DNA of 64,000 nt from Fodinibius salipaludis. Lineage in GTDB: Bacteria > Bacteroidota > Rhodothermia > Balneolales > Balneolaceae. A model generated the notes under the pieces. The model searched no databases. It was given only the letters and a program-made list of their open reading frames with translations, and was not told where the DNA came from. Location of the stretch: NCBI RefSeq assembly GCF_002287075.1, contig NZ_NSKE01000004.1:1-64000 (forward strand), read 5' to 3'. The position numbers were made by a program, and so were the translations under genes. Positions 333 through 57,891 of the stretch are shown here, piece after piece (within the stretch, counting starts at the first letter, position 1; every line of letters begins with the position of its first letter).

Positions 333-3300
333 ATGCTATTAACACTATTAATTGGCTTTCTTCAAGTTAGCGTTGTTTCTGCTGACAGTAATCTGGTCGA
401 GCAATCAAAATCACAGGCCAATTACTATATCAACAATATTAAACAGGGCCAATATGTTGGAGAAAACATTTGGGCACTCACAATATTGACCAATAGCCAT
501 CCAGAAGTTCGGGAAGCTGTTGAAAAAAAAGTTCAGAGGGGTAACTATACAAATGATTTCACAGCCCTTTTTCACAATATAGAACATCGCTATTCCGACC
601 AGCTTAAAAAGATTGTATTTAAGACAGGATCAGTTCAGTTACTAACAGAACTCCTGTTAATATCAGATGAAAATAGAGAAGTCATTTATGAACAATACTC
701 ATCAAAGTTTGAGTTAAAACATGATAGAAAAGATGTTGATATTAAAGCCTTATTCAAGGCTATCATAAATGAAGACACTATCGATGAGTCTGTAGTATCA
801 ACCGACACATTTACTCTCACTCATCTGTTATTGCTTTTCCGAGCTCATAACCAACTCAGTGAATCTTTCTTAACAAGTCTAATAGAAAACTGGTCTCAAA
901 AAAATAATTCTGATCAAAATCTTTTCTCGACATTATATAACGCCAGTTATTTACGAGCTTTATACCTAAACTATGATTACGGACAGACAACTCCGTTATA
1001 TAATCAACTCATTAAAGATAAGCTCTTTCCAAACTCCAGCCTCAAGCTTAAGTTATACCGCTATCTTGATTATTCCATGTACCGATTAGGATATTATGAC
1101 CGAAGCCTCCAAATTGCCAGGAAGTACACCTTGCCATTAGCTACCTATCTCGATAAAGAAAAAGAACAAATCAATATTAAACAGTTACAAGGCGTTTATC
1201 TTTATAGCATCGGGAAAATTAAAGCTGCTGAAAAAATTTACCAAGAAGTTTTAAAAGAAATAAATCAAAAGAACTTAAATATTCCCCGGTCATCTATATA
1301 TAATAACTTAGCTCTTACCTACCACAAATTAGGAAAATATGATCAATTTCTTGACTTACAATTTCAGGCATTAGAAACAGCAGAACAGTCAAATAATTAT
1401 TCTCATCAACTCGAAATTTTTAACAATTTATTCATTTACTACAAAAAAAATAATGACCAAAATAATGCTCTTGAATACTTAGAAAGAGCAAAAAGATTAG
1501 CCCAAGAAAAAGGTTCTAATCAAGACTTAGGAAAAGTCTATATCTCTCTTGGAACAAGTGTTAGACAATTTAATCAATCTTTTAAAAAAGCTTTTCAATA
1601 TTTTTCAAAAGCCGAAAAAGTATTAGATCCTAAAAATAATTCTGAACATTTTATCTATTTACTTATCGAGCAGGCGAATACTTTTGAAAAACAAAAGAAC
1701 TATTCTGCGGCAATTAACAAGTATGATCAAATATTGTCTCTTACTCCTGAAGAGAACAGTCCTAAACATCTTGATGCTTTAGTAAACAAAGCTTTAGTGA
1801 ATTTAAAGATGAATAAGATGAATAAGACTAAAAGTCTTATTTCTAAATATAAATCTTTTGATCTAAGCCAACTCGATTTTAATCAAATTGTTAAAGCTAA
1901 AAAAGTTGAAGCTGATTATCTCTTCCAAACCGGAAATATCTCAAAAGCTTTAGAAATTCTTGAACCCACATTAAATCAAATTGTTGTAAGAGCTCAGGGC
2001 AGTACTGATCTTAAATCCGGGTTTTGGCATATAGAGGACGAATATCTCGATGCCTTTGAACTGACAGCATCTATTTATATGGATAGGGGGCAACCCGGTA
2101 AAGCCGTGGAAAAGCTTGACCAACTGAAAACCATTAATGATGCCTCGCTTTATCAAAACCCCTTGGTTAAATCGAGCTTGCTGAACGAATCGGAATTAAC
2201 GGAATACAAGCAGATAACCGATCAGCTTGATGTCGTCCGTAAAAAACTTCTAACTGCACCCGAAGACGAGCAATTTGAAATTCGACAGCAGATCAACCAG
2301 TTGAATACCAAAAAACGAAAGTACGACCGTCGGCTAACCAAAAATATTGATCTGACCCCCACCTCTATTCGCCAAATTCAAAATAAACTGTCAGGCCGAG
2401 AGCTCTTGCTGCACATAACAGAACTCAAAGACCAATATTATATCGCCAAAATATCCCGCACTGAAATAGACCTAAAAACCATTGATCTGGATGACAATCG
2501 ACGACAGCTGTTTAGTAATGCTGCTCAACAGATAGCAACTCGTGAAACCAACCTTGATTCTCTTTATAAGATTTCCCAGATCCTGGAGTTAAATGAGATT
2601 CCCCATTACATCGATAAAATTACGCTTATTCCCGACAGCTACTTCTATCAGCTTCCATTGGATATTCTTCCCTTGGAAGCACCCTCTAATAGCTACAGCT
2701 ACGGAGAGGCAACGTATGCCATCGAGAAGTTTAACACACAATACCTAACCACGCTGGAGGATTTTAAAACCCCGAACCGTTCTTCATCACCTTCTACTTC
2801 TAAAGCCCGAATGAATTATGTGGGATACGGGGTGTCAAACTTTGAAAACTATGCGAACCAATCATTAGTACCGTTACCTTATGCTCAATCTGAAGTTGTC
2901 CAGATAGCAAAAAGCCTCACTAACCTTTCCCAAGTCGAAACCTACATCAATAAACAATCAACCAAATCCACTTTTAAGCAAACGGCCCCGCACTCTCAAA
3001 TCATCCATTTAGCAACCCACAGTGAAGTGTCGGAACGTGATCCGATGTTTTCTACGGTCTATTTTAACAAATCTACAGCCGATAGCGACAGCACTTTTGA
3101 CGATCGGTTTTTTGCCTATGAATTATTTGAAATGGACCTCAGCAATGAAATGGTAATGCTTAACTCATGTGAATCGGGGTCCGGATCATATATCCAGGGT
3201 ACCGGGGTAATGGGTATCAGTAGAGCACTGCGGTATGCCGGTGCCGAATCATTGATACTCAACTTATGGTCAGTGAACGATAAGCTTGCCTCTGAATTTG

Positions 3301-57229: not shown

Positions 57230-57314
57230 GACGACTTCCATTCATTTTCTTTTGATGCGATTAACTTCCCAATAAAGATGCTACTTTCTGCCGTTTATCA
57301 TAGGTATAAAACAT
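57230..57314 (-). pseudogene. Decayed second copy of the GIY-YIG gene
   Basis: It starts with the same M-F-Y-T-Y and the same upstream DNA as the intact gene, loses the middle, then resembles the intact 3' end (K-L-I-A-S-K-E-N-E-W against K-L-I-N-S-E-E-N-E-C). Frame closes early at 57261. It is the internal-deletion relic of a tandem copy. Confidence 0.65.
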
Positions 57315-57446
57315 ATCTAAAATAAAAAAGCCCTTGCAGGAAACAGCAAGGACTAACGAATTTTAGAGTCTGCTCAACGAAGCTCTTTTGAGCATAGTTG
57401 AGCGGGAGATCCCGATTATTCGGGACGACCTTCTCGTTGGCAACGA
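57301..57446. repeat. Left copy of the tRNA-Gly-3'-half direct repeat
   Basis: Matches 57721-57864 at a constant offset of about 420 bases, with scattered mismatches and small gaps. Contents: first codons of a GIY-YIG gene, terminator hairpin, nested hairpin and the tRNA-Gly 3' half. It is the more diverged copy: its terminator stem and T arm carry mutations. Confidence 0.92.
57401..57446 (-). pseudogene. tRNA-Gly 3' half
   Basis: From the anticodon stem (TCGTTGCCAACGAG) through a mutated T arm to the acceptor CTCCCGC. The 5' half of the tRNA is absent; the junction lies in the anticodon stem. Not a functional tRNA. Confidence 0.88.
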
Positions 57447-57458
57447 TACCTTAAGGCT

Positions 57459-57734
57459 TTATTGTTGAGCTATATCGCATTCATTTTCTTCAGAATTAAT
57501 AAGCTTTTCTATAAACTGCCTGCTTTTCTGATCCTTTATAAAGTTTTCCCACTTAATAGCCTCAGTCTTGGATCTTAAACTTTTACAATAGACCACCTGC
57601 CAAGGAATTCCCGACTTCGTTGATCTATTCCCACCCTTGTTGTGCTTTGCCACACGACTTTCAACACCTACTGAAGTATAACCTGTGTAGTAGCTATCAG
57701 TTGATTCGCTATATATTATGTAGGTATAAAACAT
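57459..57734 (-). CDS. GIY-YIG nuclease-domain protein
   Basis: A 91-residue single-domain protein. The GIY-YIG module reads Y-T-Y-I-I-Y-S ... D-S-Y-Y-T-G-Y-T-S (the I of Y-I-G is Thr), then the conserved Arg in E-S-R-V-A-K-H-N and the Glu in T-E-A-I-K-W-E. These single-domain members (UPF0213-like) have no fixed function; many Bacteroidota carry several near tRNA genes (recollection). Here it sits between two repeats that each hold the tRNA-Gly 3' half, directly after the tRNA terminator. Confidence 0.87.
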   Translation of the reverse strand: MFYTYIIYSESTDSYYTGYTSVGVESRVAKHNKGGNRSTKSGIPWQVVYCKSLRSKTEAIKWENFIKDQKSRQFIEKLINSEENECDIAQQ

Positions 57735-57864
57735 ATCTAAATAAAAAAGCCCTTGCAGAAAACCGCAAGGGCTAACGAATTTTAGAGTCTGCTCAACGAA
57801 GCTCTTTTGAGCGTAGTTGAGCGGGAGACCGGAGTCGAACCGGCGACCTTCTCGTTGGCAACGA
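57721..57864. repeat. Right copy of the tRNA-Gly-3'-half direct repeat
   Basis: The better preserved copy, overlapping the start of the intact GIY-YIG gene on one side and the functional tRNA-Gly on the other. See the left copy at 57301-57446. Confidence 0.92.
57743..57773 (-). terminator. Terminator of tRNA-Gly
   Basis: A 9-bp stem (AGCCCTTGC with GCAAGGGCT) and 8-base loop, followed on the minus strand by a T run. It separates the tRNA from the GIY-YIG gene, whose ATG lies only 9 bases beyond. Confidence 0.85.
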
Positions 57865-57891
57865 GATGCTCTACCGCTGAGCTACTCCCGC
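57820..57891 (-). tRNA. tRNA-Gly (anticodon GCC)
   Basis: A 72-base cloverleaf: acceptor GCGGGAG with CTCCCGC, D arm TAGCTCAGCGGTAGAGC, anticodon loop TT-GCC-AA, T arm GGTTCGACTCC. Discriminator T; CCA not encoded. Intact, unlike the partial copy at 57401-57446. Confidence 0.95.

Follow-up and report, generated by a model that had tools for sequence, protein, structure and literature searches.

The GIY-YIG homing endonuclease SegB is encoded by a free-standing gene in the tRNA cluster of phages T4 and T6, where it lies beside tRNA genes. It belongs to neither an intron nor an intein, and by recombination between short homologies it promotes the amplification of segments (PMC13096335). A second precedent is provided by fungal mitochondria, in which mobile ORFs with duplicated gene ends have been described in atp6 of Allomyces and in atp6, atp9, cox2 and nad3 of Glomus. 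These have a layout of restored gene, nuclease and displaced end, the inserted end being foreign (PMC3630166).

Here we analyse a small unit in Fodinibius salipaludis that consists of a GIY-YIG gene between two copies of a tRNA-Gly, together with the family to which it belongs. This family resembles both of the systems above, and fully matches neither. In common with SegB, the units have a GIY-YIG gene beside tRNA genes and putative amplification via short homologies, and are free of introns and inteins. SegB, compared here by description, differs in being phage-borne and in not forming a unit of one gene bound to one particular tRNA, and no hairpin-tagged second tRNA copy of the kind found in the present units has been described for it (PMC13096335). 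In common with the fungal mobile ORFs, a nuclease ORF is accompanied by a second copy of the end of its target, the target remains functional, and the displaced end lies beyond the ORF. The fungal elements differ in that they occupy organellar protein genes and bring in a foreign end, and hairpins are unreported for them (PMC3630166). In the present units there is no division into a foreign functional end and a native displaced end, both copies being of the host's own tRNA type.

Two further systems deserve comparison. The tyrT repeats of E. coli are, like the present units, arranged in tandem behind a tRNA and each carry a tRNA 3' end; to our knowledge they have neither a nuclease gene nor hairpin-disrupted arms. 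Rickettsia palindromic elements are short palindromes inserted in genes, including RNA genes, and are similar to the present units in this respect; comparing them by description, we know of no association with nuclease genes or duplicated tRNAs. We found no description of the present units in the open-access full-text literature (that is, excluding subscription papers and preprints), and this large GIY-YIG/tRNA family is apparently undescribed. The units can be regarded as a variant of homing-type nuclease genes, with a real chance that they form a new class.

Organisation of the locus

The window analysed is a stretch of 64,000 nucleotides of F. salipaludis, a member of the Balneolales (contig NZ_NSKE01000004.1, positions 1 to 64,000). 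Read along the minus strand, the locus starts with a tRNA-Gly(GCC) gene, followed by a spacer that contains a palindrome, a terminator-like hairpin, an ORF of 91 aa and a second tRNA-Gly-like sequence. Beyond this there is a second terminator and then the remnant of a second ORF. The features are as follows.

57819-57891, minus strand: functional tRNA-Gly(GCC), the presumed target or address of the unit (ARAGORN; Rfam tRNA, 72 bits)
57743-57772, minus strand: terminator-like hairpin GCCCTTGC..GCAAGGGC with a T run, between the tRNA and the ORF (from the sequence)
57459-57734, minus strand: GIY-YIG nuclease ORF, 91 aa, active-site residues retained (Pfam PF01541, E 3e-13)
57400-57478, minus strand: second tRNA-Gly copy, degenerate, full-length, 79 nt (alignment to the functional tRNA, and fold)
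57410-57425, minus strand: hairpin TCCCGAATAATCGGGA in place of the T arm of the second tRNA copy
57323-57353, minus strand: second copy of the terminator-like hairpin (repeat family D1)
57230-57314, minus strand: decayed second GIY-YIG copy, its middle lost (from the sequence)

A preliminary description of this DNA had reported direct repeats at 57301-57446 and 57721-57864, and these are real, with 90 nt matching at 96% and a spacing of 419 bp, and further matching blocks of 28 nt at 93% and 21 nt at 100%. It had also recognised a complete tRNA on the right, a GIY-YIG gene between the repeats, and a decayed GIY-YIG copy that keeps its start and end. All of these are borne out: ARAGORN finds one intact tRNA-Gly(GCC) in the repeat region, the Pfam match to the ORF is clear, and the start and end of the decayed copy are visible at 57301-57314 and at about 57230-57268, respectively. 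The left tRNA, on the other hand, had been taken for a 3' half only, which is incorrect. The second copy aligns across the whole tRNA (79 versus 73 nt) with its cloverleaf fold lost, and the place of its T arm is taken by a hairpin; hairpins within this copy had been overlooked. The last ~20 nt of the GIY-YIG ORF form the 5' end of the second tRNA copy, the two features overlapping.

An Rfam scan of the region detected no intron families, and the tRNA is uninterrupted, which sets the locus apart from group I introns and other intervening elements. Rfam matches of the PyrR type in the region were taken as chance, with scores below the gathering threshold and a coverage that corresponds to the tRNA and terminator hairpins.

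In its own genome the unit is present once, and the window protein has one close copy. No copies were found adjoining the remaining tRNAs of the window, and the other eight GIY-YIG matches in the genome have no tRNA within about 1.5 kb. Elsewhere in the same genome, 3'-end fragments of a tRNA-Pro (L171, C2:85102) and a tRNA-Ala (L173, C11:3665) carry a TCCCGA-N4-TCGGGA hairpin in the T arm. These fragments, which have no GIY-YIG gene nearby, are possibly relics of lost units.

Recurrence beside tRNA genes

Close relatives of the window protein (51-70% identical) are found in G001, G006, G007, G009, G020 and G030, in every case directly behind tRNA-Gly(GCC), and in the first four of these genomes a second tRNA copy is arranged as in the window. 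G001 contains a third fragment and two identical tandem units, while G007 has a broken unit and one further unit at this position. Among 12 species of the genus, this tRNA is followed by an intact unit in five, by decayed remnants in two (G002 and G005, called by sequence inspection) and by neither in five.

A family profile was built from 18 proteins, and is partly biased because 14 of these are tRNA-linked. It has matches in 85 of 129 genomes of the order, and in 124 of 198 good genomes sampled across the phylum. The more distant relatives are located behind tRNAs other than tRNA-Gly. An intact tRNA on the same strand lies within 300 bp at 140 of 174 loci (143 of 209 hits), where chance would give about 0.8 hits if 44 tRNAs per 3.6 Mb are assumed. 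Eighteen anticodons are represented at the tRNA-adjacent loci.

An independent pattern scan was made with the window protein alone across ~85,000 species genomes. It returned 20 loci, and all 20 lie beside a tRNA gene or a tRNA copy. Three are the known tRNA-Gly units. Fifteen of the remaining 17 have an intact upstream tRNA (Ala, Asp, Val, Pro or Lys), and the last two have, respectively, only a tRNA 3' end at a contig edge (L278) and a hairpin-bearing tRNA-Asp copy (L280). The records are from Fodinibius, Flavobacterium, Chitinophagaceae, Cloacimonadota, Ignavibacteria, Armatimonadetes and a Roizmanbacteria MAG, where the MAG assignments may be contaminated. The units are widespread in Bacteroidota, and also occur in records of other phyla.

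The preliminary description had proposed looking for the unit at other tRNA loci and in relatives, and had allowed that a repeat confined to this site would be a one-off. The search gave a strongly positive outcome: though the unit is single in its own genome, relatives repeatedly show this architecture, and it is therefore far beyond chance.

Further tandem repeats are present at two loci. At L250:1130-2834(+) there is a tandem array of five near-identical GIY-YIG/tRNA-Met units, with a period of about 365 bp. At L012, two tandem 54-bp repeats are found immediately 3' of a tRNA-Gly (1907-1980, minus strand) and before the GIY-YIG gene; each consists of the 3' end of a tRNA-Gly whose T arm carries a hairpin.

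The second tRNA copy and its hairpins

The second tRNA copy could be aligned at 110 loci. In the downstream type it lies beyond the GIY-YIG gene, and comprises the whole tRNA or its 3' part. There is also a mirrored, upstream type, in which the second copy comes before the gene and the functional tRNA after it, and here the copy comprises the 5' part. The clean attachment-like junction in the anticodon stem that had been anticipated is not supported, since whole and partial copies both occur, together with the mirrored type.

In most of the copies, loops and arms have either gained hairpins or been replaced by them, and indels affect particular arms. In downstream-type copies they are found in 54 of the 61 anticodon arms covered and in 61 of 83 T arms, with the D arm intact in 18 of 27; in the upstream type they affect 14 of 20 D arms and 10 of 12 anticodon arms. 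Among insertions of at least 6 nt in the aligned copies, 76 of 131 fold alone into a hairpin of at least 4 bp. The true number is at least this high, since hairpins are often split by the aligner, as in G001 and G006. A double hairpin of 22 nt is recurrent (for example CCCCAAAGGGATCCCTTCGGGA), and has paired changes such as TGCC..GGCA and TTCC..GGAA. It is sited in D, anticodon and T loops, in copies of different tRNAs. At L224 (97/97 nt), L222, L111, L147 and L025 the copy matches the functional tRNA at 100% apart from the hairpin, from which it follows that the hairpin is not a product of slow decay.

The stop codon of the ORF starts at nt 8 of the tRNA in 14 of the 20 downstream copies that are full-length. 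Protection from RNase P was considered as the sole reason for the hairpins. It fits the full-length downstream copies, with their stop at nt 8, but fails for the half copies of the upstream type. The palindrome was also considered as a feature exclusive to the tRNA units. This was rejected, because it is present in RNase P RNA, 23S rRNA and REP-like repeats as well (gene names read from the sequence), and it is therefore a dispersed palindrome and not unit-specific. In the window's genome, members of the palindrome family are also found at L173, L174, L175 and L178 (RNase P RNA, 23S rRNA and REP-like intergenic repeats).

The GIY-YIG protein and its targets

The product of the ORF is a GIY-YIG domain with little beyond it. 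Residues Y16, G18, R27 and E63 are invariant in the alignment of 18 proteins, and the R and E are catalytic, so that the protein has the domain and the catalytic residues of a homing endonuclease of this type. The nearest solved structures by profile are the UPF0213 proteins 1zg2 and 1ywl, followed by SLX1. These UPF0213/YhbQ-type small proteins, and SLX1, which is a structure-selective repair nuclease, have the fold and size class of the window protein in common, and we know of no tie of either to tRNA genes. NCBIfam has no named family for the window protein, and there were no matches to it in phage, plasmid and viral contigs. The ratio dN/dS of the ORF has a median of 0.15 and a range of 0.05-0.32 (53 non-independent pairs with dS of 0.1-2). 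The ORF is thus under purifying selection, which indicates that the GIY-YIG protein is in use.

A tree of 132 proteins, which is based on few columns and has many weak forks, includes twelve tRNA targets and requires 14 changes between them (minimum 11; shuffled mean 69.8, with 0 of 200 shuffles as low). The GIY-YIG lineages hold to one tRNA type. A gene located beside its target, with fidelity of each lineage to that target, is what is expected for a homing endonuclease, the tRNA being the putative cleavage target. Within a target clade, the tree is compatible with much vertical descent and does not require recent horizontal transfer. An argument for horizontal transfer based on the genus label (43 changes) was dropped, because several ancient, vertically inherited target lineages predict the same. 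The idea that a foreign tRNA is transferred together with the element is also unsupported: G001 has a different type of tRNA-Gly, and this is found in the unit-free G011 too. In general the second copies match the host's own tRNA type, with no sign of a foreign tRNA.

Related lineages outside tRNA genes

One GIY-YIG clade is placed in genes other than tRNA genes (gene names are again read from the sequences). In L120, L122, L139 and L141, the GIY-YIG gene is at about 1080-1380 (coding strand) within a putative RNase P RNA gene, where a long inverted repeat, CCCCGCACATAACATTTAA..TTAAATGTTATGTGCGGGG, encloses it in its loop. In L019, L028, L086 and L096 it lies within integron-integrase-like genes or at their 3' end, and is bracketed by inverted repeats CCCCGTTAGAAATTT..AAATTTCTAACGGGG. 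Inverted repeats also enclose it in L119 (around 1094-1334, coding strand), here within a RAYT-like (REP-associated) transposase gene. In L002 (1501-1737, minus strand; C39:86186-86422 of the window's own genome), L015 and L016 it is found at the start of an rfbB-like (dTDP-glucose-dehydratase-like) gene, with an extra copy of the first ~35 bp of this gene upstream of the GIY-YIG gene and the intact gene downstream. These sequences suggest that hairpins and restored gene ends are general to the GIY-YIG group.

Origin and possible function of the units

Taking these results together, we propose that the unit is probably a minimal homing-like selfish element, which would be addressed to one tRNA gene and would keep its target functional. 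In such a model, a tRNA gene that lacks the unit, or a cruciform formed by this gene, would be nicked or cut by the GIY-YIG protein. The damage would then be repaired with an occupied copy as the template, importing the unit along with tRNA sequence. In this way one tRNA would remain intact, and the essential function would never be lost. The displaced tRNA copy would be left as a scar. The hairpins would most likely serve to block renewed recognition of this scar, either its re-cutting as DNA or its processing as tRNA, because they are present even in copies that otherwise match the functional gene at 100%. Tandem arrays could then arise when the two tRNA copies recombine. The earlier suggestion of a self-spreading or duplicating unit agrees with this as regards the tRNA address, the retention of a functional tRNA, the tandem growth and the adjacent decay, but not as regards an integrase-like mechanism, there being no integrase.

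The proposal is supported by the adjacency to tRNAs, the fidelity to one target, the hairpin-tagged copies, the position of the ORF's stop codon in them, the tandem units, the selection on the ORF, the invariance of its catalytic R and E, and the SegB and mitochondrial precedents. One genus contains species with an intact unit, with decayed remnants and with none, which also speaks for the proposal and is compatible with spread by gene conversion. There are also observations that argue against it. The arms of the functional tRNA, and much of its flank, are unchanged, yet this tRNA would have to escape cutting. The protein is a single domain of ~90 aa, without an obvious separate DNA-binding part for reading the tRNA type. 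The trees do not force recent horizontal transfer within a target clade, and the second copies are the host's own tRNA, with no foreign tRNA brought in.

More tentatively, the units may exemplify a class of bacterial selfish element in which the whole mobile unit is a GIY-YIG protein of roughly 80-100 aa plus a hairpin-tagged duplicate of an essential RNA gene. The nuclease would act on tRNA genes, perhaps as cruciforms, with one copy preserved and the other blocked by hairpins; each lineage would be faithful to one tRNA type across phyla, and related lineages would reside inside RNase P RNA hairpins and protein-gene motifs.

If a homing-like origin is correct, the units rank with the smallest target-specific selfish units known, having one gene in about 0.4 kb, and parasitise an essential RNA gene without introns, one copy working and the other disarmed by hairpins. 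This would suggest what many small GIY-YIG proteins do, would account for tandem pseudo-tRNAs behind tRNA genes, and would provide a testable model for homing endonucleases that exploit uninterrupted essential genes. The matching of a ~90-aa nuclease, lineage by lineage, to one tRNA type poses a question of specificity that is directly testable.

The purifying selection, the long-lived pairing of protein lineage with tRNA type, and the within-clade tree, which fits much vertical descent, would also suit a domesticated host system. Here the GIY-YIG protein would serve the adjacent tRNA, for example by controlling the copy number of tRNA loci, or by repairing or recombining them, and the hairpin copy would be a regulatory site and not a scar. 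We regard this as unlikely, given the patchy presence of the units, with decayed remnants and with absence in close relatives, their multiplication in tandem, and the occurrence of related lineages in unrelated genes, some of them inside protein genes.

Another possibility is a toxin or defence system that cuts tRNA or tRNA genes, the hairpin-bearing tRNA copy acting as a decoy or antitoxin RNA. The strict pairing of one lineage with one tRNA type, next to a mutated copy of that tRNA, is what such a system might look like. It is nevertheless distinctly improbable: no tRNA copy accompanies the relatives located in RNase P RNA, integrase-like and rfbB-like genes, the upstream-type copies are half tRNAs only, and no family was named by NCBIfam.

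A remnant or satellite of a tyrosine-recombinase element, with the tRNA 3' end as attachment site, would explain repeats that are tRNA 3' ends and the retention of an intact tRNA. For units of ~0.4 kb without an integrase this is very improbable. There is no recombinase between the tRNA copies, the single ORF of each unit is invariably GIY-YIG, and many of the second copies comprise a whole tRNA or its 5' part, so that the locus lacks the integrase by which elements with tRNA attachment sites are recognised. Finally, a one-off local tandem duplication beside a tRNA gene, with no element behind it, would fit the single unit in its own genome, but is refuted by the occurrence of the same plan at more than 100 tRNA loci in the order, the phylum and beyond.
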